Source of the DNA: Kordiimonas sp.
Lineage (GTDB): Bacteria; Pseudomonadota; Alphaproteobacteria; Sphingomonadales; Emcibacteraceae
DNA length: 64,000 nt
Direction of reading: 5' to 3'
Assembly (NCBI GenBank): GCA_002700365.1
Contig: PADB01000010.1
Span: forward strand, 606,504-670,503
The notes below the pieces were generated by a model. The model was not told the DNA's origin and did not search any database. It saw only the letters and a list, made by a program, of their open reading frames with translations. Both the position numbers and the translations under genes were made by a program. Within the stretch, counting starts at the first letter, position 1, and the number at the start of each line of letters is the position of its first letter. This document shows, piece by piece, positions 6,644 to 59,755 of the stretch.

Positions 6644-6708
6644 CTTGGAAAATGGGCTTTTGAGATCGGCCAATTTGGATAAATCGAAGTTAAGAGTGGG
6701 TCTAGGAT

Positions 6709-8013
6709 ATGAACGAAGAATCAAACCTTGCCAGTTGGAACGATTGTAACCTCTATAAGGTTCGCGATCAGCGCCAGCCTGTCAAGCTCGAAGAGCTGGA
6801 AGCGGAGAAACTTCGTTCAGAGATTGAACCGTGGCTAACAGCGCTGTTTCAAAGTGAGCATTTGTCACTTTTGCTGGGCGGTGGAATATCCTCTTCACTT
6901 CATTGGATGGCAAAAAATGAAGCCGGAGCGGGAATGGCACAAATTCCCTTTTCTGTTTTCAAAGAACAAATTGCAACGGCCTCCAAAGAAAGTGCTCTTA
7001 AGTCTGGTCGCGGTGAGGCGAATATTGAAGACCAGATTCGTGTCTGTAATGAGCTAGTAAAAGGCTTGGGTATCTATGTTTCTGAAGATGTATATGGGAG
7101 CAAGAAAATCAGAAAAAACCTTTCCAAGTTTGAAAGGGAGCTTGAGGATGGTCTGGCAGAATTTGCAAATCTGATTCTGAAATGTGAATACAACATTATC
7201 AATTCGACCAATGCTCAACAAGCGGCTGAGTACCTAATGAGTTTTCTCATTAGCTTCGCAAGTCGCTCAGCAACGAGAGAACGCCTAAATATTTTCACAA
7301 CAAATTATGACCGCATAATCGAGTACGGCTCTGAATTGGCTGGTATTCGCCTGATTGATCGTTTTGTTGGGTCTGTTAATCCGGTTTTCCGATCTTCCCG
7401 AATGGAGGTCGATATGCATTACAACCCACCCGGTATTCGCGGAGAACCGCGATACTTGGAGGGTGTGGTTCACTATTCAAAGCTTCACGGGTCGCTGGAC
7501 TGGAGTGCCAAAGACGGTGTTGTCCGTCGATATGCTTTGCCGTATGGCGCTAGCGATATCGGCACGTACTTGGAGGACGGGTGTGAGAATCTCCTTATCT
7601 ACCCCAACGCAGCAAAGGACAAAGAAACCTCTGAATACCCTTACGTTGAGCTGTTTCGGGACTTTGCTGCATCAGTATGTCGTGCCAATTCGACGGTCGT
7701 AGTTTACGGATACAGTTTTGGTGACGACCATATCAATAGAGTTATTGCCGACATGCTAACGATCCCTTCAACACACTTGGTAATCATTAGTTTTGATGAC
7801 CAAGGAGATAGGATCAAACATTTCTACGAGCGGGTTAAAAGACCTGCACAGATATCACTTCTCATCGGTGGGCATTTTGGTGATCTGAAGTCGTTGGTTG
7901 ACAACTACCTGCCCAAGCCAGCCATTGATCGTACTACCATTAAAATGGCTGATCTTCTGAAAGCGCGGGGTATTGCAGCTCCCCATGTCGAACATGGTCA
8001 GGAGGAATCATGA
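6709..8013 (+). CDS. SIR2-like protein of SIR2-HerA defence module 1 (putative NADase)
   Basis: 434 residues. SIR2 motifs in order: LLGGGIS near residue 53 (nucleotide-binding glycines), FTTNYD near 196, LHGSLDW near 259 and YGYSFGDDHIN near 332. Defence SIR2 domains of this kind hydrolyse NAD+ after phage sensing; here the activity is inferred from family. The stop overlaps the next start (ATGA), and AGGAGG precedes that start, so translation of the HerA-like partner is coupled. It lies 65 bases after the RelE-UvrD gene. The paired SIR2-HerA organisation corresponds to the described Nezha-type system. A second, divergent copy is at 16578. Confidence 0.85.
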   Translation: MNEESNLASWNDCNLYKVRDQRQPVKLEELEAEKLRSEIEPWLTALFQSEHLSLLLGGGISSSLHWMAKNEAGAGMAQIPFSVFKEQIATASKESALKSGRGEANIEDQIRVCNELVKGLGIYVSEDVYGSKKIRKNLSKFERELEDGLAEFANLILKCEYNIINSTNAQQAAEYLMSFLISFASRSATRERLNIFTTNYDRIIEYGSELAGIRLIDRFVGSVNPVFRSSRMEVDMHYNPPGIRGEPRYLEGVVHYSKLHGSLDWSAKDGVVRRYALPYGASDIGTYLEDGCENLLIYPNAAKDKETSEYPYVELFRDFAASVCRANSTVVVYGYSFGDDHINRVIADMLTIPSTHLVIISFDDQGDRIKHFYERVKRPAQISLLIGGHFGDLKSLVDNYLPKPAIDRTTIKMADLLKARGIAAPHVEHGQEES

Positions 8014-8444
8014 GCATTTCTCCGGTAGAGCACTCGGCCTCGTTACGGATTGGTGCAGTCGAATTTGTATCACCGGATGAGATAAAGGTAGCTCTGGATT
8101 TGGAAGCTCCAGACGGAATAGCGGCAAATGCTGGCATTCCGAGAGCATTCCCTCGTATCAATAGTTACGTGCTCGTTGCTACTGAGTCCGGTCATATCGT
8201 GGCGCAGGTAGAATGGATAGCAGTTGAACGGTCTCCATTTCCCAAACGTAAGGGGTTTCAAGACTACGGCCTTGTAGATTTGCCGTTTCCTCTTCGTAAG
8301 ATGCGAGTCAATCCGCTTGGCATTATTAAAAAGGATGGTGAGACCTTTTTATTCAAGCGAGGCGTACACGGATTTCCAAGCGTTGGCGAGCCAGTTCTTA
8401 TTCCGACGGATGAACAGCTAAGAGCCATCATTGAGTCAGGTTAA
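8010..8444 (+). CDS. N-terminal HAS-barrel part of HerA-like ATPase, ended by an in-frame ochre stop
   Basis: 144 residues of beta-rich sequence matching the N-terminal barrel domain of HerA proteins, as also found fused in the second HerA at 17842. It starts by ATGA overlap with SIR2 and has a strong AGGAGG. It ends at TAA 8442-8444. The same frame continues for ten more codons, including an IGTS motif that HerA-2 also has just before its P-loop region, directly into the ATPase ORF at 8475. Joined, the two pieces give about 687 codons, close to the 683 residues of HerA-2. This is therefore probably one herA gene interrupted by a nonsense codon, or a natural split or readthrough gene. Confidence 0.75.
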   Translation: MSISPVEHSASLRIGAVEFVSPDEIKVALDLEAPDGIAANAGIPRAFPRINSYVLVATESGHIVAQVEWIAVERSPFPKRKGFQDYGLVDLPFPLRKMRVNPLGIIKKDGETFLFKRGVHGFPSVGEPVLIPTDEQLRAIIESG

Positions 8445-8474
8445 AAAAGGCGTGTAAAGATTGGTACAAGCCCC

Positions 8475-10073
8475 ATGGCTGCAAATGCTGATGTCTGTGT
8501 TGACCCTGACAGACTTTTTGGACGGCATCTTGCAGTTTTAGGAAACACAGGTAGCGGGAAGTCTTGTTCCGTAGCAGGGTTGATTCAGTGGTCAATCGCT
8601 GCGGCTAAAGAGGCATCGAGTGACAGCGAGATTGCCCCAAACGCAAGGTTTATTGTTCTTGACCCCAATGGCGAATATTCTAAAGTATTTCAAGAATCGG
8701 GGCGAGTTTTCAAGGTCGGTGATACCACGAATCCATTGCAAGTTCCGCTCTGGTTTTGGAATAGCGCTGAATGGTGTTCATTCACGCAAGCTAGCGCGAG
8801 AGCACAAGTACCGCTATTAAAGCGAGCGCTCCGCTCTATGCGTAATGAAGAGTTTGAGCTGACAGAAGAAGTCAGTATCAGAGTGAAACGCTTCTTGAGT
8901 TCAATTCTAATAAGCGTAAAACACGAATTGAGCTTAGGTTCTCCCTGGGGATCGTTTCCAAGACCAAAAAACTTTTACGAAAAAGTCTGCAAATGGCTGG
9001 ATAGCGTTGAATCCCTTAAGGCTATGCTGGAGGCCAACGATGACAGACTAGATGCGCTGACAAATAGTCTTTCTACTTACAGAGACAATCGATCAGGACA
9101 ATACCCAACCTACGAATCTGATATTAACGAAGTGTCAGGTATAGCCAACCAGATATCTAGTGCCTTCGTATCGTTTGGTGGAACGGAGCAAGACTTGCTT
9201 CCTAAGAGCGAAGACATTCCAACGCGATTTACTGGTGAAGTCTTTGTTAATTATCTTGAGGCTTTAGCGCAGGAAACAGGTAACGAACAATATGTGGAGT
9301 TTTTGTTGGCGCGTATACGCACAATGCTTGCCGATACGCGAATGAAGGACATTATTGGAGACGATGTTGATGTATCGCTTGGTGATTGGCTTGGTAATTA
9401 CATCGGTGAAGACGGAGCCACAAATGGTTGTGTAACGATCATCGATCTTTCTTTGGTTCCCGCAGATATCATACATGTAGTAACTGCCGTAATTGCTCGC
9501 ATGACGTTTGAAGCTTTGCAGCGGTACAGAAAGCTAAACGAAAAGTCATTACCGACAGTGTTAGTGATGGAGGAAGCCCACACCTTCGTTAAACGACACA
9601 AGGAAGATGCAGAAAATCAGAGCGCGTCGTCAGTTTGCTGTCAAATGTTTGAAAAAATTTCAAGAGAAGGCAGAAAATTTGGTCTCGGTCTTGTTTTGTC
9701 TTCTCAAAGACCGTCCGAGCTATCTCCAACAGTGCTTTCGCAGTGCAATAGCTTCTTGTTGCATCGGGTAAGCAATGATAGAGACCAAGAGCTGATTCAT
9801 AGGCTTGTGCCGGACAATCTAAGAGGATTGCTTCGAGAGTTACCATCATTACCTTCCCAGCAAGCAATTTTGCTTGGATGGGCATCAGAACTACCTATCA
9901 TGGTAAGGATGAATGACTTAGCAGATCATGAGCGTCCGCAATCTGATGATCCAGATTTCTGGGATGTTTGGTCGCGAACTAAGGACAGAGCACTCGACTG
10001 GCCCAAGATCGCTGAAGATTGGCAGCAAATCGCTCAGGACGATGATCAAGGAGCCGATGATGGGCAGGAATAA
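8475..10073 (+). CDS. herA: HerA-like hexameric translocase ATPase domain (module 1), 3' part of stop-split gene
   Basis: 532 residues from the ATG at 8475. Walker A GNTGSGKS is near residue 22, Walker B VMEEAHTF near 365, and the SSQRPSELSPTVLSQCN segment near 410 is typical of HerA/VirB4-like ATPases. HerA partners of SIR2 proteins form hexameric DNA motors that assemble with SIR2 oligomers. It is in the same frame as the upstream barrel ORF, separated only by TAA at 8442. No convincing ribosome-binding site precedes 8475, apart from a weak A-rich AAGG about 25 bases upstream, so independent translation is uncertain. The preceding IGTS codons lie upstream of this ATG, which argues for ancestral fusion. 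Confidence 0.85.
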   Translation: MAANADVCVDPDRLFGRHLAVLGNTGSGKSCSVAGLIQWSIAAAKEASSDSEIAPNARFIVLDPNGEYSKVFQESGRVFKVGDTTNPLQVPLWFWNSAEWCSFTQASARAQVPLLKRALRSMRNEEFELTEEVSIRVKRFLSSILISVKHELSLGSPWGSFPRPKNFYEKVCKWLDSVESLKAMLEANDDRLDALTNSLSTYRDNRSGQYPTYESDINEVSGIANQISSAFVSFGGTEQDLLPKSEDIPTRFTGEVFVNYLEALAQETGNEQYVEFLLARIRTMLADTRMKDIIGDDVDVSLGDWLGNYIGEDGATNGCVTIIDLSLVPADIIHVVTAVIARMTFEALQRYRKLNEKSLPTVLVMEEAHTFVKRHKEDAENQSASSVCCQMFEKISREGRKFGLGLVLSSQRPSELSPTVLSQCNSFLLHRVSNDRDQELIHRLVPDNLRGLLRELPSLPSQQAILLGWASELPIMVRMNDLADHERPQSDDPDFWDVWSRTKDRALDWPKIAEDWQQIAQDDDQGADDGQE

Positions 10074-10096
10074 AACCTCAGCTAAGGTGATGATGC

Positions 10097-10276
10097 TCAA
10101 GGACATAGTGCCCTTGAAGCCAGTTCATTCTGAATATTCTCGATGGATGCCAGAGCGTTTCGCCGCTGATGCGTATCAAACTCACTTTTCGCAAGTGCAT
10201 TAAAAGCCTCTCTCAATAGTCCGCGCAGCTCATTTTCATTTTTCGCTGCCAGTTCAAATCTTGTTACCAGTTTCAT
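10097..10276 (-). CDS. Small hypothetical protein, 59 aa
   Basis: ATG at 10276 with GGAGG seven bases upstream; the stop is at 10097, convergent with the HerA gene. The product begins MKLVTRFELAAKNENELRGL and is a mostly helical, charged small protein. I do not recognise a characterised family. Its position next to ardA and mobilisation genes suggests it belongs to the mobile-element backbone rather than to the defence genes. The strong start signal is the main support. Confidence 0.55.
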   Translation of the reverse strand: MKLVTRFELAAKNENELRGLLREAFNALAKSEFDTHQRRNALASIENIQNELASRALCP

Positions 10277-10769
10277 TTTAACCTCCAGGTTTTGGAGGCC
10301 GCGCCTATCGCGGCCTTTGATGGGGCCGCTTGTGCGCGTTAGGTCATGGCTTGCACCTGTGGTCGAAATATATGGAGGAGCGTGAAATTCACGCTTGCTG
10401 GGTACATGGGCTATCGCCGCTAAGTATCGGACGAAGAAAAGGCCGCTTAGCGCGGCTTGAACAATGGAGCGTTAATCTGAGACTGATACGAGATGAGAGT
10501 TTAAGGCAATGAAAACGCTGACTGCGTTTTTGAGAAGTTGGTTTTACCTTGCAGGTAATCGTTTCCCCGAAGAAATACGGGGCATTGCATCCCCGCAAAA
10601 TCAAGAAAAATGACGGTTTCCGCCTGATCCACTACGTGGGGCAGACCCTCCGCAATTTTTCTGGATTTTTTCACCCCCGCCTAGTCGGCCTAGTCGCCAG
10701 AGGTTCATGAGCAGCGCACCTCAAGCGGTGCTTGTAAGAACCTCAATAGCGAATTTAGGAGCAAAGACA
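10277..10769. other. Intergenic region with several inverted repeats upstream of ardA
   Basis: About 490 bases with no convincing gene. It holds a 7-bp stem GGCCGCG/CGCGGCC around 10297-10315, a near-perfect palindrome GCGTGAAATTCACGC at 10380-10394, a GCCGC/GCGGC hairpin near 10440-10455, and a CCCCG/CGGGG hairpin near 10566. A short frame from 10549 (TTG) to 10710 is open but has no start signal. ardA genes commonly lie in the leading region of conjugative elements, so this stretch may hold a promoter or transfer-origin elements. That is inference. Confidence 0.4.
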
Positions 10770-11285
10770 ATGAGTGAAGAAATCAGAATTTACGTGGCAG
10801 ACCTCGCAGCTTATAACAACGGCAAGCTACACGGCGTATGGATAGACGCGACCCAAGACCTTGACGACATTCAAGATCAGATTAACGCCATGCTGGAAAA
10901 AAGCCCCGAAGGTTTCGCGGAGGAATACGCTATTCACGATTATGAAGGGTTTGGTGGTTGTTCAGTGAGCGAGTATCAAGGCATTCAGTCAGTGCACGAA
11001 ATTGCCTGTTTTATCGAAGGTTATCCCGAGCTTGCAGGGGAATTGCTTAGCCATTTTGGCGACAGCATTGAAGATGCCAGAGAAGCTATAGAAGAGAGTT
11101 ATTCCGGCTGCTACAAGTCCCTGGCGGACTACGTCGAGGAACTCACCCAGGACACAAGCCAAATACCCGAAAATCTGGCTTACTATATCGACTATGAACG
11201 CATGGGGCGCGACATGGAAAGGAGCGGCGATATTTACACCATCGAAACCGCTTATGATGAAATTCATGTTTTCTGGAGCCACTGA
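10770..11285 (+). CDS. ardA: Antirestriction protein ArdA
   Basis: 171 residues from the ATG at 10770, which has AGGAG at good spacing; an in-frame ATG at 10707 would add 21 unlikely residues. ArdA proteins are acidic DNA mimics that block type I (and some other) restriction enzymes during conjugative entry. The sequence is strongly acidic, contains the family-typical YVADLAAYNNGKLHGVWID stretch and an EEYAIHDYEGF segment, and has the usual length. It is the immunity gene of the mobilisable part of the island and sits beside the relaxase genes. Confidence 0.92.
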   Translation: MSEEIRIYVADLAAYNNGKLHGVWIDATQDLDDIQDQINAMLEKSPEGFAEEYAIHDYEGFGGCSVSEYQGIQSVHEIACFIEGYPELAGELLSHFGDSIEDAREAIEESYSGCYKSLADYVEELTQDTSQIPENLAYYIDYERMGRDMERSGDIYTIETAYDEIHVFWSH

Positions 11286-11304
11286 CCGCAGGCAGTAGAA
11301 TGAA

Positions 11305-11394
11305 GCCGCCGGATTATCCGGCGGCAAATTTTCGCACAATGTTTATTGTGGAGGTTTGCGAAAATTTGCGCCGCCAAGCGTGTGGCTTGGCGGC
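11305..11394. repeat. Nested inverted repeats between ardA and the relaxase gene (terminators and/or oriT candidate)
   Basis: A 9-bp stem with a 3-nt loop (GCCGCCGGA/TCCGGCGGC, 11305-11325) follows ardA. An 11-bp inverted repeat CAAATTTTCGC/GCGAAAATTTG (11325-11335 and 11358-11368) encloses an inner ACAAT/ATTGT pair. A 10-bp stem GCCGCCAAGC/GCTTGGCGGC (11370-11394) lies just downstream of the minus-strand relaxase. The outer stems suit terminators for the two convergent genes. The central long dyad is more than a terminator needs. Confidence 0.7.
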
Positions 11395-11413
11395 AGAACG
11401 CGGCGCTTGCCGC

Positions 11414-12739
11414 TTAAATCTCGGGTTCATACCCTCGATCATTGCCTCTTTCTTTTTTCGGCTTTTTGGTCTTTCTCGCCTTTTCGGAAGCGTTGCGAAA
11501 TTCTTCCTTCAGTTTGGAGGGCTTATCAGTTTTGAGATTCCTATATTCCTGAATATCCTGGCGCAACAGTTCGATTTCCAGCTCATGGGTATGGATTTCA
11601 CTACGCTGACGCAGACTGAGCTGCTGGCGTTGTTGGATATGCTTGAAAATCAGCTCGTCTTTTTCCTGGCGGTCTCGCTGAAATGCGACAAGCGAATCCA
11701 GTTCATTTTGACGTTTGGTTTTCTCATACTTGCCTGTAAGCCGATGCCAGATGCCCATAAGCCCTTTGGATAGGCGCTGTGAACGCTCTTTTGTTTCTGC
11801 ATCCCAGCGTTTGCTGTGGGATTGCTCCAAAAGTTGCCGCTCTTTGCGCTGTTCTTCCACCAATCGCTGGCGTTTGAATTCAAAGGCAGCGGAGCGTTTT
11901 TGTTTGGTTGCCTCAGCATGGGAAAGGTGTTGCTGAAGCTTCCTGGACATATCCGCCGCTATTTTCTCATTGGCTTGCTCAATGGATGGCAGGGTTTGCG
12001 GGTCACCCAGCCGCTCTCGAACATCCTTGGCCTTTACACCAGCATATCTGGCGATGGCGTAGGACTCACCACGGTAATCGACAGCAACAAAGCCTCGCCG
12101 ATCACCGCGAGCAAGAACAAAGCCTTTACTGAGCAGAGCCGCCGCAAAGGCGTTGCGGTTATCAGAGATAGCCCAGCTTTCCTGAAAAGTCCGTTTAATG
12201 TCTTTAGGGTTCAGCCCCACACGGCGGGCTTGCTGCCATTCCTCGCGGCTGAAGTTGAGCGGGTTCCGATCCTTGCGGTCGATGATTCCTGGCGGAATTT
12301 TCCAGCCATGTTCCAAATACAGCTCCCTGGACACGTCCTTCAGCTTCATCTTGTAGAAAGGCAGGTTTACAGCCTTCATCTCGTCCGTGTCGATCCTCGA
12401 CCAAACTACATGGGCATGGCGGCGACCTTCTTTCTCATGGAATACTATGGCGCGAGGCTGATCTTCCAGGCCGAGCTTTTGCTCTATTTGCTCGATAGCC
12501 GTTTCAAACACCTCAATCGGCACGCGCTCATTGGGAGGTGGACTGAGGCTCAGGGAGAAAAACGGCTGCTTGGCGCGAGTGCCCTTGCTAACCGCATGGA
12601 TTTCATTGAAGGCAGTCGGCAGGTCTTCCGACATGAAGCCCCTCAGCTCATGGACTTCGACATGCTCGTTCTCTTCTGTTTTGAGTAAATGCGCTGCGAG
12701 CTGTTTACCACCTGAGCGCTGGCTTCCCTTCAAAATCAT
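11414..12739 (-). CDS. Relaxase / mobilisation nuclease (MOBP-like)
   Basis: 441 residues. The N-terminal relaxase domain has the metal-binding HxH motif at His108 and His110 (RRHAHVVWSRID) with a further His101, and opens with GSQRSGGKQLAAHLL. No tyrosine occurs before the HxH cluster, so the DNA-linking nucleophile is not the usual N-terminal Tyr; a histidine such as His17 is possible. Residues 270-440 are long charged coiled-coil helices. The start has GGAGG upstream and follows the mobC stop by two bases. It nicks oriT to start mobilisation; no conjugation pore genes are in the window, so transfer would need a helper. Confidence 0.85.
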   Translation of the reverse strand: MILKGSQRSGGKQLAAHLLKTEENEHVEVHELRGFMSEDLPTAFNEIHAVSKGTRAKQPFFSLSLSPPPNERVPIEVFETAIEQIEQKLGLEDQPRAIVFHEKEGRRHAHVVWSRIDTDEMKAVNLPFYKMKLKDVSRELYLEHGWKIPPGIIDRKDRNPLNFSREEWQQARRVGLNPKDIKRTFQESWAISDNRNAFAAALLSKGFVLARGDRRGFVAVDYRGESYAIARYAGVKAKDVRERLGDPQTLPSIEQANEKIAADMSRKLQQHLSHAEATKQKRSAAFEFKRQRLVEEQRKERQLLEQSHSKRWDAETKERSQRLSKGLMGIWHRLTGKYEKTKRQNELDSLVAFQRDRQEKDELIFKHIQQRQQLSLRQRSEIHTHELEIELLRQDIQEYRNLKTDKPSKLKEEFRNASEKARKTKKPKKERGNDRGYEPEI

Positions 12740-12741
12740 GG

Positions 12742-13146
12742 CTACACCTCCGAGGAGTAGTAGCCCAGAGCCTGCATAAGTAATATGCGCATGGTTCTTA
12801 CATCGTCACAGGCATTTTGGAGCGCCTTTTCGGTATCCGGCGTGACAGGCAAGGAGCCGGAGTTGGCGGCTTTAGCAAGCTGGTTGACGTTGCTGGCAAG
12901 GCGGGATTCACCCAGTTTGCCCAGCAGTTCACCCAGGGCTTTTTCGTCTTTTAGAGGCTTTCTGGTACGGCTGCGCCGTTTTCTCGGTGCTTCCGTGCCG
13001 CCGAAGAGCTTTGAGCGTATATAGGCTCCCAGAGGCCGATTGCCAGCCGATTGTTCCAGGGCGGCGCGTTCCTCAAAGGTCAATCTAAGGGAGAATGGCG
13101 TAGGTAACTTGCTGTTTTTGCTTGAATTTGAAGGAGATGTGCTCAT
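12742..13146 (-). CDS. mobC: MobC-like relaxosome accessory protein
   Basis: 134 residues. A basic N-terminal region containing FSLRLTFEERAALEQSAGNRPLGAYIRSKLF looks like a ribbon-helix-helix DNA-binding domain of the MobC type. It is followed by an RKRRSRTRK linker and a helical tail. Such proteins bind oriT and help the relaxase nick. The start overlaps an upstream stop as TAATG, and its own stop lies two bases before the relaxase ATG, so the order is a coupled mob operon on the minus strand. Confidence 0.82.
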   Translation of the reverse strand: MSTSPSNSSKNSKLPTPFSLRLTFEERAALEQSAGNRPLGAYIRSKLFGGTEAPRKRRSRTRKPLKDEKALGELLGKLGESRLASNVNQLAKAANSGSLPVTPDTEKALQNACDDVRTMRILLMQALGYYSSEV

Positions 13147-16577: not shown

Positions 16578-17855
16578 ATGATGGAATTTTTCAAAGGAAG
16601 CCGCGACGAATTCGAAAAACTCAAGGGCGAGGGTTCTTGGAAAGACAAGGCTAAAATCATCCAGCGGCAAATGGCTGAAGTCTTTGGTTCCAAGAATCTC
16701 TCCTTCCTGATGGGGTCAGGTTGTTCTTCCTTGCGACCTGAAGACGAGGACCTGGGGATTCCTACGATGAAATTTCTGGCAGAAGAATTTCAAGCGCTAC
16801 TCGCCACTGACGATGAAGCAGGGCTGGCTTTCGTCAACGCAACGCAAAAAGCAGAACTCTACGAAAAGCTCGGAATCGATCTTTCCTCTGACGACGTGAA
16901 GGGTAATTTGGAGCAAATGATGGCTGTTATGATAAATGCCCATCAGTTCTGCCAGACAAGTGATAAGGATGAGCTGAATACCGTCGCTGCTCTAGTGGAA
17001 AGTATTATTGTCGGCATCAAGAAGTTCGTTCTTTACAAATGCACTACAGGGCCTTTTTCCAACGGTAACGATAGCGTCGTCGCGCACTATCGTAGGTTCT
17101 ATCAGTCTTTGACGACACGCGCGCGCGGCCTCGCGCCGCCTTGGGTCTTCACCACCAACTACGATCTATTCAATGAACGTGCGATGGATCGTTCAGGTAT
17201 ACCTTACTCGAACGGCTTTTCGGGAACGGTCGAACGGCGGTTCAACCCTGCCACCTACCGGCTGGCGCTAGCGGAACAGTTGGACATCACCTCCCGCCGC
17301 TGGGCTGCCGTTGATGGTTTCGTGCACTTCTGCAAGCTGCATGGCTCCGTCAACTGGACTGAAGAGGATACTGGGCTCTTTCCCATCCGCGAGTCGCATG
17401 CGCCACTCGATCCTTCCAAGGATCGAGTCATGATCTATCCCACGCCATCGAAACAAACGGCAAGCTTCGGCTCACCGTACGCGGATATGTTTCGCGAATT
17501 CCAACGACAGGTCGTGCAAGACCAGAGCGTCTTGATGATCTTGGGCTACAGCTTTGGAGATGAGCACGTTAACAACATCATCTTCCAAGGGCTTACCTTG
17601 CCAGGTTTCAGGGTCATCGCGTTCATGGACCCCGAGACGAATGACATCACACGTGAACTTGCAGCGCTCGGCGATCCGCGCATCTGGTTCATTTGGGGCG
17701 ATGGTAAGGAAGTAGGAACAAAGGCGCATTACTTCGATAGCGTAGTTAATCATCTCATGCCCACCAGCGCCGATCAGAAGATCGACCAGACGATAGAGAA
17801 GGCATTGCAAACGCTTCTTGCCAAGCCGCAGGATACTGAAGATGGCCAGGGATGA
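16578..17855 (+). CDS. SIR2-like protein of SIR2-HerA defence module 2 (putative NADase)
   Basis: 425 residues; ATG at 16578 with a second in-frame ATG at 16581. Motifs: FLMGSGCSS near residue 46, FTTNYD near 192, KLHGSVNW near 254 and LGYSFGDEHVNN near 322. It shares these motifs and the overall length with the SIR2 at 6709 but differs widely elsewhere, and its base composition is more GC-rich, so it was acquired separately rather than duplicated locally. It overlaps the start of its HerA partner by 14 bases. Expected role: NAD+ depletion on phage sensing, by family analogy. Confidence 0.86.
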   Translation: MMEFFKGSRDEFEKLKGEGSWKDKAKIIQRQMAEVFGSKNLSFLMGSGCSSLRPEDEDLGIPTMKFLAEEFQALLATDDEAGLAFVNATQKAELYEKLGIDLSSDDVKGNLEQMMAVMINAHQFCQTSDKDELNTVAALVESIIVGIKKFVLYKCTTGPFSNGNDSVVAHYRRFYQSLTTRARGLAPPWVFTTNYDLFNERAMDRSGIPYSNGFSGTVERRFNPATYRLALAEQLDITSRRWAAVDGFVHFCKLHGSVNWTEEDTGLFPIRESHAPLDPSKDRVMIYPTPSKQTASFGSPYADMFREFQRQVVQDQSVLMILGYSFGDEHVNNIIFQGLTLPGFRVIAFMDPETNDITRELAALGDPRIWFIWGDGKEVGTKAHYFDSVVNHLMPTSADQKIDQTIEKALQTLLAKPQDTEDGQG

Positions 17856-19893
17856 TGCAAGTCGCGCCATCGGGAAGATCGTCAGCGTCTCTGCTGACCG
17901 TTTGGTTGTCGAGCTGCACGGCGGCAGTGACAACTTCACTATCGTAGGCTTTGACGATATCCACTACGTGGCAACCCTCGGCTCATATCTCACGGTTCCG
18001 ATGCAAGCTGAATATGTGGTTCTGGAGGTCGTCGGCCTTCGCGAAAAGGATAGTGCACAGCCCCACGCATCTCAGACTGAATTGGACAAGGCGTCTTCCG
18101 CCAAATTCCTTGACGTGATTCCGATAGGCTCGATGCCGATACAGGGAGGGAGTTTTCGCTTCGGCGTTTCCACATTTCCGCCGCTTTATGCGGATGCCCT
18201 TTACGCGCGGGATGAAGACCTCGACCGTATATTCAACGTCGAACTCCCATCTGTAACCGAGACGAAAACGGACGCAGCGGGCGTCGAGCAACAAGGCAAT
18301 GTTCCGCATAATATTGAAATTGGCACGTCGGCTGTCTTCAAGGGCTATCCTGTCAAATCACGCCTTGATGAGCTGTTCGGCGGTCATGTAGCGGTGCTTG
18401 GCAACACGGGAAGCGGAAAGTCCTGTACCGTTGCTTCTATCTTTCAGTCTGTTTTCATGAAGCCCGAAGCGTTTGCACCGCTGGGCGCGGCGTTCGTGAT
18501 TTTTGACGTGAATGGGGAATATCGTCGAGCGCTTGATAACGTCCCTGCCTGGATCAAGTCTTGTTATCTCAAGGCGACTGAGCCGGACATGCCGATCCTT
18601 GACCCTTCTGAGAAGAGGCAGGAGGCGGAGATCAAAGACAGATTCAAGTTGCCGCACTGGTTCATGAGCGTCGATGAATGGGCTTTGCTTTTGCGCGCGA
18701 GTGAAAAGTCGCAACTGCCCGCTCTGCGGACAGCACTCGGTTTGACGACCCTTTTTCAGGAGACGCCTGAACAGGCAGTGGTTGATGGTGCGGGAGCCGG
18801 GAATGATCTCAATGCGATTCGGAATCACGTCTTAGCAAAGATCATTCTGTCTATCTTGCACAGCGACTCCAGCTCTCCGAGCAAGGCAGACCGCATCCAA
18901 GCGCTGCTGAATACGTTCTCGACAGATGAGATTTCGAAAGGAACAGTCTCGTTAGGTCTGACTGTCTACTACGGGCAATTTCGCGATGGGCAGCATCAAG
19001 AAACGACAGCCAACTATGATGCGCTCCTAGAACTTCTCAAAGGGCATGAACAAGATGAACCCGTGCTTCCAGGTTACGGGAATACGCCGTTTTCATTCGA
19101 GCGGCTTCAAGCCGCGCTCGACCTTGCGCTGTTCTATGAGGAAGCGAATGGAAACAAGCAAATTCGCGAATATTGCTCGCAGTTGGTTACACGGCTGAAA
19201 TCTGTGATCGATAACCCCGACTATGAGTTTCTACGAGCTGACGTGGGCGCGTTGCAAGATCATGACCGTGAGCCCACCCACTATGTGAATCGTCTGCTAG
19301 GGATCGAAGTCGATGATGGGCGCTATAAGAAGGAACGTCAGATTTGCATCATCGATCTCAACGACGCATCGGACGAAATTGTCGAGCTTGCCTCAGCCGT
19401 TGTTGCCCGTCTGATTTTTGATCGTATGCGCCGTGCTGATCCCCGTAACGCGATGCCTGTTCATCTGATTTTGGAAGAAGCGCATCGATATATTTCGGAG
19501 AAGCCAAGTCGCTTCGCTATTGATGCGGGCATTACGTTCCAAAGGATTGCGAAAGAGGGCAGAAAATACGGTGCTTTCTTGATCGTGGCCTCTCAGAGAC
19601 CAAGCGAGCTATCGAAAACGGTTCTCTCTCAGTGCAACAATTTTATTATCCACCGCATTCAGAACCCTGACGATCTCTCCCAGATCAGGCAAATGACTCC
19701 TTTCATTTCGGAGACAGTGCTGAGGCGACTACCTTCCTTGCCAAAGCAGCATGCACTCATTTTTGGCAACTCAGTCAATATTCCGACTACGTTCCGTGTT
19801 CGCGACGCAGATCCGACACCTTACAGCAACGACACGCAGATCAGGGACATCTGGTATGTGCCGACCGATCCAGAAGTCAGTTGGACGGCGTAG
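17842..19893 (+). CDS. herA: HerA-like ATPase of SIR2-HerA module 2 (intact)
   Basis: 683 residues from the ATG at 17842, which has AGGA upstream; an upstream TTG at 17818 is less likely. An N-terminal HAS-barrel (residues 1 to about 110) is followed by an IEIGTS segment, Walker A LGNTGSGKS near 187, Walker B LEEAHRY near 543 and the ASQRPSELSKTVLSQCNNF segment. This is the complete form that shows how module 1 HerA is split. HerA forms a hexameric DNA translocase that works with SIR2. The start overlaps the end of the SIR2 gene, typical of the fixed gene pair. Confidence 0.9.
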   Translation: MARDDASRAIGKIVSVSADRLVVELHGGSDNFTIVGFDDIHYVATLGSYLTVPMQAEYVVLEVVGLREKDSAQPHASQTELDKASSAKFLDVIPIGSMPIQGGSFRFGVSTFPPLYADALYARDEDLDRIFNVELPSVTETKTDAAGVEQQGNVPHNIEIGTSAVFKGYPVKSRLDELFGGHVAVLGNTGSGKSCTVASIFQSVFMKPEAFAPLGAAFVIFDVNGEYRRALDNVPAWIKSCYLKATEPDMPILDPSEKRQEAEIKDRFKLPHWFMSVDEWALLLRASEKSQLPALRTALGLTTLFQETPEQAVVDGAGAGNDLNAIRNHVLAKIILSILHSDSSSPSKADRIQALLNTFSTDEISKGTVSLGLTVYYGQFRDGQHQETTANYDALLELLKGHEQDEPVLPGYGNTPFSFERLQAALDLALFYEEANGNKQIREYCSQLVTRLKSVIDNPDYEFLRADVGALQDHDREPTHYVNRLLGIEVDDGRYKKERQICIIDLNDASDEIVELASAVVARLIFDRMRRADPRNAMPVHLILEEAHRYISEKPSRFAIDAGITFQRIAKEGRKYGAFLIVASQRPSELSKTVLSQCNNFIIHRIQNPDDLSQIRQMTPFISETVLRRLPSLPKQHALIFGNSVNIPTTFRVRDADPTPYSNDTQIRDIWYVPTDPEVSWTA

Positions 19894-54266: not shown

Positions 54267-54941
54267 GTGTCTGGCAACGACCCGTTAGTCTTGGCATTGC
54301 CAAAGGGGCGTATTTTGAAAGAGGTCATGCCGATCATCCGCGCCGCTGGCATCGAACCGGAGGCCGCATTCGATGACCCGAAATCACGCAAGCTGAAATT
54401 CGAAACGAACCATTCTGATATACAAATCATTCGGGTGCGTAGTTTTGATGTGGCAACCTTTGTTGCCTTCGGCGCCGCCCATTTAGGCGTGGCTGGCAAC
54501 GATGTGCTGATGGAATTTGACTACAGCGAAATTTACGCCCCGTTGGATCTTGATATCGGACATTGCCGTCTTTCGGTCGCCGAACCGGAAGAACTCAGCA
54601 AAACAGATGACCCCCGTCGTTGGAGCCATGTGCGTGTGGCGACAAAATATCCGAATTTGACGCGCAAACATTTTGCCGAACGCGGGGTGCAGGCCGAATG
54701 TATTAAACTGAACGGTGCCATGGAACTGGCCCCCAATTTAGGGTTATGCCGCCGGATTGTTGACCTGGTCAGTACGGGCTCTACACTAAAAGCTAATGGT
54801 TTGGTCGAAGTCGAAAAAATAGTTGATATTACATCGCGTTTTATCGTCAACAGGCCCGCCTTTAAAACCCGTAATGCCGAAGTCGGCGGATGGGTAAAAC
54901 GCGTAGAGGAGGCCTTAAATGGTCTTAAGGCTGCACAGTAA
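54267..54941 (+). CDS. hisG: ATP phosphoribosyltransferase, short form
   Basis: 224 residues with a GTG start preceded by [22 protein letters not shown] at the N-terminus and the [23 protein letters not shown]-binding segment near residue 170 identify HisG. The C-terminal regulatory domain is absent, as in the short form that needs HisZ, which is not in the window. First step of histidine synthesis. The last 23 bases overlap hisD. Confidence 0.96.
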
Positions 54942-56214
54942 AGACGCAACATTTTCGCAAGACTTCAGCGCATTGCTGCATGCCAGCCGCGATGCACAGG
55001 ATGACGTGCGGGCGGTCGTGCTGGATATTCTGGCCGATGTACGCCGTCGTGGCGATACGGCTTTACGTGAATATACGAAACGTTTCGACCGTATTGATAT
55101 GACCGCCTCAACGATGAAAGTCACGACGTCGGAAATCGAAACCGCTTGGCAACAATGCCAGCAAGAGACGCTTGACGCACTATACGTCGCGGCAAAACGC
55201 ATAGAAGACTTTCACCATCGTCACCTGCCGACAGATGACAGTCTCACAGATAAAGAAGGCGTTGCCTTAGGGGTACGGTGGACCGCCGTCGAAGCCGCGG
55301 GCCTGTATGTGCCCGGGGGAAAAGCCAGCTATCCTTCTTCTGTTTTAATGAATGCCATCCCGGCGAAAGTGGCCGGCGTGGAACGCATCGTTATGGTGGT
55401 GCCCGCCCCAGATGGGGTTTTGAACCCCTTGGTCCTGGCCGCCGCGAAATTAGCCGGCGTCACAGAAATTTATAAAATCGGCGGTGCACAAGCCGTCGCA
55501 GCTCTGGCCTATGGCACAGAAACAATCCAACCGGTTGATATCATTACAGGCCCCGGCAATGCCTTTGTTGCCGAAGCAAAACGTGAAGTTTTCGGTACTG
55601 TCGGTATTGATATGGTTGCAGGGCCATCCGAAATACTGGTGGTTGCCGATAATAAAAATGACCCGCAATGGATAGCAATTGATCTATTAAGTCAGGCCGA
55701 ACATGACGAGGTCGCTCAATCCATCCTCATTACGGATGACGCTGATTATGCAACAATGGTCGAAGCCGCCGTTGAAAACCAGCTTTCTACATTACCGCGT
55801 GCCTCCATTGCCCGAAAAAGCTGGGAAGACCACGGCGTTGTCATTGTCGTAGATGATCTACGAAATGCACCGCCACTTATTAATAAACTGGCGCCGGAAC
55901 ATTTGGAGCTTGCCGTGGATAGCCCCGATACCATATTGGCAGATACCCGCAATGCAGGGTCCATATTCCTGGGCCGTCATACACCCGAAGCCATCGGCGA
56001 TTATGTTGCTGGCCCCAACCATGTATTACCCACGGCACGGTCAGCCCGCTTTTCATCAGGGTTGTCGGTTCTTAACTTCATGAAACGCAGCACCCTCATC
56101 CAATGCAGTGCCGCAAGCCTGGAACGCATCGGCCCTGCTGCCATAACCCTTGCCGAAGCAGAAGGGCTGCACGCCCATGCCCGTTCTATTGATATCCGTT
56201 TGACAGACAGGTGA
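54919..56214 (+). CDS. hisD: Histidinol dehydrogenase
   Basis: 431 residues. Signature stretches: [52 protein letters not shown] (zinc ligands Gln and His) and [17 protein letters not shown] near the C-terminus. Two NAD-dependent oxidations make histidine. The start overlaps hisG, and the next gene begins four bases after the stop. Confidence 0.97.
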
Positions 56215-56218
56215 TCTG

Positions 56219-56707
56219 ATGTCCGCAGCACAGAACAAACGCATCTGTGAAATAGAGCTGGATGAAAAAAGCATCATCAGCCGCAGTGCCGAAGTCGAAC
56301 ACGAAAGACGTGTGGCTATTTTCGACCTGTTGGAAGAAAATCATTTTGATCCGCAAACCAAATATGAGGGCGACTATGATGGTCCGTATAAGGTTGTCCT
56401 CAGCCTGATCGAAGACCGGCTCTCGATGGAGATCTTTTCCGACCAGGACCAATTGCTCGAAACCATAATTCTGCCGCTTAAGTCCTTTCGACGGGTTATT
56501 AAAGAATATTTTATGATCTGTGAAAGCTATTTTAATGCCATCAAAAAAGCCAGCCCCAGCCAGATCGAGGCTATTGATATGGGGCGGCGCGGACTTCATA
56601 ACGAAGGCTCAGAGATATTACGCGAACGCCTGGAAGATAAAATCGCGCTGGATCTGAACACGGCACGACGACTTTTCACTCTTATTTGCGTCCTGCAGAT
56701 TCGTTAG
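56219..56707 (+). CDS. UPF0262 family protein
   Basis: 162 residues. RICEIELDEKSIISRSAEVE near the start, EHERRVAIFDLLEENHFDP, and RRGLHNEGSEILRERLEDKI near the end match UPF0262. The family is alphaproteobacterial and usually follows hisD, as here. Function unknown; cytosolic. Confidence 0.92.
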   Translation: MSAAQNKRICEIELDEKSIISRSAEVEHERRVAIFDLLEENHFDPQTKYEGDYDGPYKVVLSLIEDRLSMEIFSDQDQLLETIILPLKSFRRVIKEYFMICESYFNAIKKASPSQIEAIDMGRRGLHNEGSEILRERLEDKIALDLNTARRLFTLICVLQIR

Positions 56708-56719
56708 GGAGTGACGTCC

Positions 56720-57220
56720 ATGGTGCCATTTCCTCCCCCCAGCCCGACTAACGCCAATCCAAACGTCATCAATGCGAGCCCCAGTAGCGTGCTTTTTATC
56801 TGCAACTTTAACGCTGTCCGCTCACCGATGGCCGAAATACTCGCACAGCATTTTATTGGGCGGCGTTGTTACGTGAAAAGTGCAGGAATCCGTGGAGATG
56901 ACGATCAGGAAGTGAACCCTTTTTGTGTTGAAGTGCTGCAGGAAATGGGCCTGGACCTCTCTCAACACCGCCCACAGAATCTGGATGAAATTGCTGACAG
57001 CTCCTTCGACCTCATTATTTCACTCACCCCCGAAGCCCAGCATAAAGCTGTCGATTTGACCCGTTCGATGGCCTGTGACGTGGAATATTGGCCGACAATG
57101 GATCCCACCTTGGTCCAGGGCAACCGTGAGGTCATCCTCACAGCCTTTCGCGAAACCCGTGACCAGCTCGCCGCGCGCATAAAGGAACGCTTTGACGTCA
57201 TGCCGCCACCACAGGTCTGA
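56720..57220 (+). CDS. Low-molecular-weight protein-tyrosine-phosphatase-like protein
   Basis: 166 residues from the ATG at 56720 with AGGGAG eight bases upstream; a GTG at 56711 sits too close to that site. The P-loop CNFNAVRS (CX5RS) near residue 29 and the later WPTMDPT with the catalytic Asp define the fold shared by phosphatases and arsenate reductases. In this conserved gene order phosphatase activity is the better guess. It may be co-transcribed with hisD and UPF0262. Confidence 0.9.
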   Translation: MVPFPPPSPTNANPNVINASPSSVLFICNFNAVRSPMAEILAQHFIGRRCYVKSAGIRGDDDQEVNPFCVEVLQEMGLDLSQHRPQNLDEIADSSFDLIISLTPEAQHKAVDLTRSMACDVEYWPTMDPTLVQGNREVILTAFRETRDQLAARIKERFDVMPPPQV

Positions 57221-57361
57221 CGGATGTCCCGACCACGCGCCAAAACAGCCTATATTACGAACCTGTCATAAGAAACCTTGGGAAAAACCTTGCTTTTTCT
57301 GCCGTTATGCATATTTTCCATGCAGAATATAGAAATCTATCTGCGGTATTAAGGAGCCCTA

Positions 57362-57580
57362 ATGGCTAAAGAAGACCTGCTTGAAATGCGCGGCACTGTG
57401 ACCGAGCTACTCCCCAATGCGATGTTTCGCGTTGTTTTAGAGAATGAACATGAAATTCTCGCACATACGGCGGGAAAAATGCGTAAAAACCGTATCCGCG
57501 TTCTGGCGGGTGATGATGTTTTGGTAGAAATGACCCCTTACGACCTGACCAAAGGGCGTATTACTTACCGCTTTAAATAA
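57362..57580 (+). CDS. infA: Translation initiation factor IF-1
   Basis: 72 residues, exactly the family length: [20 protein letters not shown], then [20 protein letters not shown] and a basic end RITYRFK. OB-fold protein occupying the ribosomal A site at initiation. TAAGGAG precedes the start. A terminator follows. Confidence 0.98.
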
Positions 57581-57602
57581 GGCGGGCTTTCCGTCCGCCT
57601 TT
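57579..57602 (+). terminator. Hairpin after infA
   Basis: AAGGCGG/CCGCCTT arms overlapping the infA stop, followed by TTTA. Weak T-run; it lies just before maf. Confidence 0.7.
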
Positions 57603-57607
57603 ACATC

Positions 57608-58204
57608 ATGCGCACCCCCTCCGCTATTTTGCCTCGATTGATTCTTGCCTCTGCGTCGCCGCGCCGATTGGACCTGCTGAAACAGATCAATATTATTCCT
57701 GACCTGATTGTTCCGGCAGATATCGACGAAACACCACATAAAGATGAAGCCGCCCGGGACCTGGCCTTGCGTCTGGCCATCGAAAAAGCCCAGACTCTTC
57801 AACCTGACTATCGTCATGATTACATTCTCGCGGCCGACACCGTTGTCGCTTGTGGTCGGCGCATACTCCCCAAACCCGCTGATCGTGAAGAAGCCCGCCA
57901 CTGCCTGACACTTCTGTCTGGCCGACGTCATACTGTCTACAGCGGCATTGCAGTCCTCAGCCCCGACATGCCCTGTCGTCATCGCGTTGTAAAATCCACG
58001 GTCACTTTTAAGCGTCTAAGCCCGGCAGAAATAGATTTTTACATCGACTCAAAAGAATGGCAGGGTAAAGCAGGCGGTTATGCAATACAGGGGATCGCAG
58101 CCCGGTTCATCCGCACGCTGAGCGGTTCTCATAGCAGCGTTGTCGGTCTGCCCCTCTTTGAAACCGCATCACTGCTTCAGGGAATTGGTGCCATCACACC
58201 ATAA
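57608..58204 (+). CDS. maf: Maf-like nucleoside triphosphate pyrophosphatase
   Basis: 198 residues. LILASASPRRLDLLKQ holds the conserved Ser-x-Arg-Arg near the N-terminus. Also AADTVVACGRRILPKPAD with the catalytic Asp, and GKAGGYAIQGIAARFI near the end. It hydrolyses non-canonical or UTP/dTTP nucleotides. Followed by the RNase gene. Confidence 0.94.
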   Translation: MRTPSAILPRLILASASPRRLDLLKQINIIPDLIVPADIDETPHKDEAARDLALRLAIEKAQTLQPDYRHDYILAADTVVACGRRILPKPADREEARHCLTLLSGRRHTVYSGIAVLSPDMPCRHRVVKSTVTFKRLSPAEIDFYIDSKEWQGKAGGYAIQGIAARFIRTLSGSHSSVVGLPLFETASLLQGIGAITP

Positions 58205-58285
58205 CGGCAGGGAAAAACATGGGAAATACATGGCCTATATACCATGGCACCGCATACCTGCGACACTTTACCGGGGGTCAGGGCA

Positions 58286-59755
58286 ATGAACACAACTTTG
58301 TTGCTTGATTGTTTTCTGGATGAACGACGACTGGCGATCATCGAAAATGGCATCACCCAATACTTCCATCTTTTCACAACTGCATACACCCATACTCACC
58401 AGATTTATCTCGGTCGTGTGATCGATATCAATACGCAGCTCAATGCTGTTTTCATTGATTTGGGCAATGGTCAGTCCGGGCTATTGCAGGCCCGCAGTGC
58501 CCGCAGCCTTCCCCTCCTTAAATCACAAACAGCCCATGGCCCTGAGAAGCGCAGTGACCTCATCGAAGATTACGTCCATCAGGGGCAGGCCATATTGGTG
58601 CAGGTTCTCCGTGCCGGCCACAATAAAAAGGGGCCAAAGCTCACCACAAGTATCACACTGACGCATCCTTTGATGATGTATCATCCTCTGGGGAGAAGTA
58701 TTTCAATACCGAAGCGTCTCGAAAATGAAGACCGTCAACGGCTGAAAACGTTCGCCGACAATACGCTCAACGGAGAGATGGGCTTGTCCTTTCGTCGCCG
58801 CGCGACGGGTTATAGTGACGATACATTAACCCAGGTCATAACCGCCCTGCAGCGCGACTGGCAACGGGTTCTGAAAATGGCCAAGACGGCCAATGCACCC
58901 ATATGTCTTTCCAAAGAACTTGGCCTCGACCTGCCCCCATGGCTAAAAACTCTTGAAGACATCCTGATTACGGCGAACGCCGATGCAAATCAGTCACTGC
59001 AATTGATCTGCAATAACGCAGATGACGTGCTGGCCATTCGCGAACGTACCCGGCTTTTCTTATCGGCCGATCGCGGCAATAACCAACTACAATATCTGAA
59101 TGCGCAAAACGGTGTTTTTAGCCACCACAATATCGAAGACCAATGGGAACAATTACTGGATAGTCATTGTCCATTGCCTGACCTGCCCGGAGCCTGGATC
59201 AGTATTGAACATACAACGGCCCTTACCGCCATTGACGTCAACATGGGAAGCGCACAGCCCCATCATGATCAACAAGAAGCCATCCTAAAGCTCAATCTGG
59301 CGGCGGCAAAAGAAATCAGCCGTCAGATTCGGCTACGCAACATCGGCGGCCTGATTGTGATTGATTTTGTCGATATGCTGGGTCAGCGCCATAAAGAGCA
59401 GTTACTGGCAACGCTGGATCACGAACTTGCCAGGGATCAAATGAACATTCAGCGCAGCAAGCTATCGCATTTTGGTCTGTTAGAATTAAGCCGCCCGGCA
59501 CAAACTCCCTGCCTGACACAACAATTGGCGCGGCCCACCCCGCGCTATCTTCACCCCCGACCAGCCACCAGCCTACGGCATAAATTACGTCAACTTCGCA
59601 CACAGTACCAATCCGGAGATACGGCCCCCCTAGAGCTCAGCACACTGGAAGCAGAATATCTCCATCAGGATCTTGAGGGACGGCCCGATATCTGTCATCT
59701 TTTTACACAACAGACTGGCATCACGCTGCAACTGCAAACTGAAAAGACATCATGA
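58286..59755 (+). CDS. rng: Ribonuclease E/G family protein
   Basis: 489 residues from the ATG at 58286; a longer frame from 58244 is less likely. S1 domain: IYLGRVIDINTQLNAVFIDL followed by GNGQSGLL. Catalytic region: SIEHTTALTAIDVN and IGGLIVIDFVDM carry the two metal-binding aspartates of RNase E/G. The zinc-link CPxC motif that joins subunits in classical RNase E/G is not present; the corresponding stretch reads LSRPAQTPCLTQQ. It ends overlapping yacG by ATGA. It probably trims rRNA and mRNA 5' ends. Confidence 0.88.
   Translation: MNTTLLLDCFLDERRLAIIENGITQYFHLFTTAYTHTHQIYLGRVIDINTQLNAVFIDLGNGQSGLLQARSARSLPLLKSQTAHGPEKRSDLIEDYVHQGQAILVQVLRAGHNKKGPKLTTSITLTHPLMMYHPLGRSISIPKRLENEDRQRLKTFADNTLNGEMGLSFRRRATGYSDDTLTQVITALQRDWQRVLKMAKTANAPICLSKELGLDLPPWLKTLEDILITANADANQSLQLICNNADDVLAIRERTRLFLSADRGNNQLQYLNAQNGVFSHHNIEDQWEQLLDSHCPLPDLPGAWISIEHTTALTAIDVNMGSAQPHHDQQEAILKLNLAAAKEISRQIRLRNIGGLIVIDFVDMLGQRHKEQLLATLDHELARDQMNIQRSKLSHFGLLELSRPAQTPCLTQQLARPTPRYLHPRPATSLRHKLRQLRTQYQSGDTAPLELSTLEAEYLHQDLEGRPDICHLFTQQTGITLQLQTEKTS

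Follow-up and report, generated by a model that had tools for sequence, protein, structure and literature searches.

The closest described relatives of the locus presented here are the SIR2-HerA systems (Nezha). The Nezha system of V. cholerae has been described as assembling from 12 SIR2 and 6 HerA subunits. When its herA was deleted, plaquing of three phage isolates rose significantly; in the authors' reading, immunity requires HerA (PMC11559045). A more distant homologue of the HerA studied here is found in HerA-DUF4297, where the effector is a Cap4-like nuclease and not SIR2. There, HerA has the same build of HAS barrel, RecA-like core and helix bundle, and the effector docks on, and is carried by, the HAS domains (PMC11291478, PMC12198126).

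Within the window, by which we mean the whole stretch of 64,000 nucleotides analysed, SIR2-HerA module 1 resembles Nezha systems with a HerA of clade PDLC04098: SIR2 precedes HerA, stop and start overlap, a single full-length model matches the two halves of HerA, and the catalytic motifs, putative in the case of SIR2, are present. Unlike in any relative examined, its HerA is interrupted by a single in-frame ochre codon.

6709..8013, + strand: SIR2 partner of module 1, 434 aa, intact; PADLOC SIR2 model PDLC04079, E 3e-162, residues 28-429; Pfam SIR2_2
8010..8444, + strand: HAS-barrel half of HerA (N-terminal), 144 codons before the ochre; PDLC04098 positions 3-144, E 3e-48
8442..8444, + strand: in-frame TAA; a sense codon stands there in 80 homologues
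8445..8474, + strand: ten sense codons, KRRVKIGTSP, holding the family's conserved V-x-I-G-x-S-P strand
8475..10073, + strand: ATPase half of HerA (RecA-like), 532 codons counted from an internal Met; PDLC04098 positions 159-684, E 5e-199; Pfam DUF87
16578..19893, + strand: SIR2-HerA module 2, belonging to another clade, with two open genes of 425 and 691 codons

The PDLC04079 gene lies directly 5' of the PDLC04098 gene, the pairing that characterizes SIR2-HerA. Judged by its sequence, the SIR2 protein of module 1 is a putative NADase effector, and its motifs FTTNYDR and KLHGS (putative active site) are identical in the nearest relative. The SIR2 stop overlaps the HerA start codon at 8010 (+), and a GGAGG before this ATG provides a good Shine-Dalgarno sequence with a duplex energy of -10.3 kcal/mol.

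Apart from the TAA at 8442-8444, the frame 8010-10073 (+) is a complete SIR2-associated HerA. The junction reads ATT GAG TCA GGT TAA AAA AGG CGT GTA AAG ATT GGT ACA AGC CCC ATG GCT: after the stop come the ten sense codons and then ATG 8475, in the same frame as 8010, from where the ATPase frame runs open to the final stop at 10071-10073. This bears out the first-pass annotation, which had described a barrel and an ATPase ORF in one frame, parted by the TAA and ten codons. Its statement that the joined length matches that of HerA-2 also holds, with 688 codon positions (internal and final TAA counted; about 687 codons) against 691 aa counted from the earliest possible start of HerA-2. A whole-genome search likewise lists the locus as an open frame of 706 with 1 TAA. 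When the two ORFs were compared with PADLOC models, a single HerA model of 686 positions, PDLC04098, was found to span both halves, with the barrel at 3-144 and the ATPase at 159-684. Because both ORFs align to the same model, they together make up one HerA. Both the HAS barrel and the RecA-like ATPase are encoded, but the TAA at 8442 keeps them from being one open chain. Walker A (GNTGSGKS) and Walker B (LVMEEAH) of the ATPase half are intact, in columns that are invariant or nearly so among 43 homologues.

Does such a split occur elsewhere in the family? A scan with the ATPase part, keeping one genome per species, returned 80 loci from many phyla at 54-91% identity. Four loci were also found on viral contigs; the codon-by-codon reading covered the 80 genome loci. 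Read in frame across the junction, barrel and ATPase form a single chain in 80/80 homologues. A stop in the column of 8442 was found in 0/80, which answers the earlier question of whether homologues carry it, and separate barrel and ATPase genes were seen at none of the 80 genome loci, so that a family of split HerA genes was rejected. The stop column mostly holds Glu or Asp (E 34, D 23, N 8, others), encoded by GAA (30), GAC/GAT (23), GAG (4) and others. Genes that are always separate, with a conserved start at 8475, would have spoken against a disrupted HerA according to the first-pass annotation; this pattern was not found, the column of ATG 8475 being Leu in 70 of 81 sequences. A seemingly second broken HerA, at locus L084, was discarded when the apparent break turned out to be a stretch of N in the assembled sequence. 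On the plasmids NZ_MT219824.1 and NZ_CP147132.1, the HerA match falls into two pieces; in the former an IS1-family transposase is annotated within the HerA stretch, apparently another way in which HerA can be inactivated.

The closest locus, L038 (Oleiphilus sp. MAG bin156, PZPK01000002.1), shares 91% identity in the ATPase; its HerA is unbroken, with 687 aa and a sense codon where the window has the stop. DNA identity between window and L038 is about 85% through SIR2-HerA and a 192-aa downstream gene that we would call ArdA-like, and both operons continue with a relaxase-like gene. At the stop the two differ by one substitution, and the neighbouring codons align without gaps. An indel or frameshift was therefore rejected, in agreement with the earlier exclusion of a pure indel: the relatives, too, align gap-free at this site.

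The shared segment covers window 6660-13146 and L038 4186-11729, with SIR2-HerA, the 192-aa gene and then the relaxase-like gene and its small partner in the same order; the identity of the relaxase-like gene is lower than the roughly 85% of the first three genes. This conserved order suggests a mobilizable island common to distant bacteria; no plasmid or phage sequence searched matched the DNA. The gene order in window 54919-59755 looks like hisD, a UPF0262-like gene, protein phosphatase, Maf and RNase G. Such an order would suggest an alphaproteobacterium, and the closest relative of this HerA carries a gammaproteobacterial label.

How old is the stop? Compared with L038, the barrel has a dN/dS of about 0.01, while values of 0.045-0.06 are found in the ATPase and of 0.03-0.06 in SIR2: both halves of HerA were under strong purifying selection until recently. 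A long loss of constraint would be expected to leave many more amino-acid changes on the window branch. With three outgroups, the ratio of nonsynonymous to synonymous changes is 28:94 on that branch and 24:97 on the L038 branch (p = 0.64), and since the window branch shows no excess of amino-acid changes, the stop in the HerA of module 1 is recent. By a rough estimate, the unconstrained share of the branch is at most about 6%.

A gene that still evolves like a working one, with no other lesion in the rest of HerA, is also what a sequencing or assembly error would produce, the true codon at 8442 being sense and HerA intact. This is the main rival to a nonsense mutation. The site adjoins a run of six A, which fits such an error as well; however, a homopolymer error would give an indel, and here we see a substitution with an unchanged frame. 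Neither does the surrounding sequence look error-prone. Searching the window for segments that share a frame, span at least 110 codons each and are parted by one stop gave five pairs, among which HerA is the only real split: the pair 24257-20208 consists of two consecutive separate ORFs, another lies antisense inside HerA-2, and two more are normal adjacent genes. The idea of an error-rich window was thus rejected. The neighbouring type III restriction gene, whose start lies ahead of the window, is open throughout, over 1018 codons, and the genome, at completeness 100 and contamination 0, is assembled into 12 contigs. Taken together, we regard an error at this codon as unlikely.

Another way for the locus to remain functional would be a lineage-specific HerA made of two chains: translation would terminate and re-initiate past the stop, either at ATG 8475 or from the rare start codon ATT at 8460, and the chains would assemble with each other and with SIR2 to give a working or differently tuned defence. 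The shared frame, the gap of only 30 bases, the internal Met and the purifying selection on barrel and ATPase are all compatible with this. In the predicted structure of the L038 HerA (mean pLDDT 74.5; 62 for residues 141-150), the stop maps to the inter-domain loop 143-148, between a helix and strand 149-154, where a split would be expected to do the least damage. Initiation at 8475 itself looks poor: its anti-Shine-Dalgarno pairing is weak (-2.8 against -10.3 kcal/mol at 8010), its Met is a variant of the usual Leu, and a start there would lose strand 149-154, in which G152 is invariant and V149, I151 and S154, like the adjoining P155, are nearly so in 43 homologues. ATT 8460 is preceded at better spacing by AAAAAAGG (-4.6 kcal/mol), although its use as a start is speculative. 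With no split homologue among the 80, we consider a two-chain HerA conceivable in principle and very improbable in fact. Were the split functional, it would mean that the HAS barrel of HerA and its motor need not be joined in one chain in order to work.

Still slightly less probable is readthrough, by which chance leakage or programmed recoding would yield some full-length HerA. All that speaks for it is that the frame stays open on either side of the stop. A programmed event, like a split-gene family, would be expected to conserve the stop among relatives, where it occurs in 0/80, and the 21-base sequence around it was not found in viral contigs. Genome-wide ochre suppression was rejected as well, as none of the 36 tRNAs in the genome has the anticodon TTA, a count that tRNAs missing from the assembly could escape. 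TAA is, moreover, the least leaky of the stop codons. Of the four options offered by the first-pass annotation, a nonsense mutation is thus strongly favoured, with the 80 homologues behind it, while readthrough and two chains appear unlikely.

It is highly probable, in our view, that a recent nonsense mutation in HerA inactivates SIR2-HerA module 1, while module 2 stays open. A single-base substitution would have hit the linker codon between HAS barrel and ATPase domain; translation would then stop after the 144-residue barrel, with the ATPase half not made or made in traces only, leaving SIR2 intact but unassisted and the module most likely inactive. The HAS domain, the effector dock in HerA-DUF4297, is the very part that is severed from the ATPase. 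Left with a barrel without motor and at most a trace of motor without barrel, SIR2 should lose its platform. As SIR2-HerA immunity depends on HerA, whose hexamer serves as the effector platform, module 1 is probably inactive, and we infer a loss of both full-length HerA and immunity. As a counterpoint, the remainder of the operon is intact, as would be expected of a functional gene too.

Module 2 sits 6 kb downstream and matches the PADLOC models PDLC04084/PDLC04090 and PDLC04102 (E 1e-170 and 4e-283); it possibly provides redundancy for module 1. The start of its HerA-2 (window 17818-19893) is ambiguous, either TTG 17818 or an in-frame Met nine codons in (~17842). Two more HerA-like ORFs lie elsewhere in the genome (C4:163304-164413 and C1:694287-695525, in frames of 584 and 583 codons), which brings the HerA-type genes to four.

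For annotation, the split matters in practice: scoring the two ORFs separately would give two HerA genes or an active system. What we see is an ordinary mutation in an ordinary two-gene anti-phage system and not a new kind of split gene; nothing points to a new kind of system. Its value lies in the clean evidence of a very recent loss: the locus clearly captures a freshly inactivated defence gene, next to a second, intact SIR2-HerA module.
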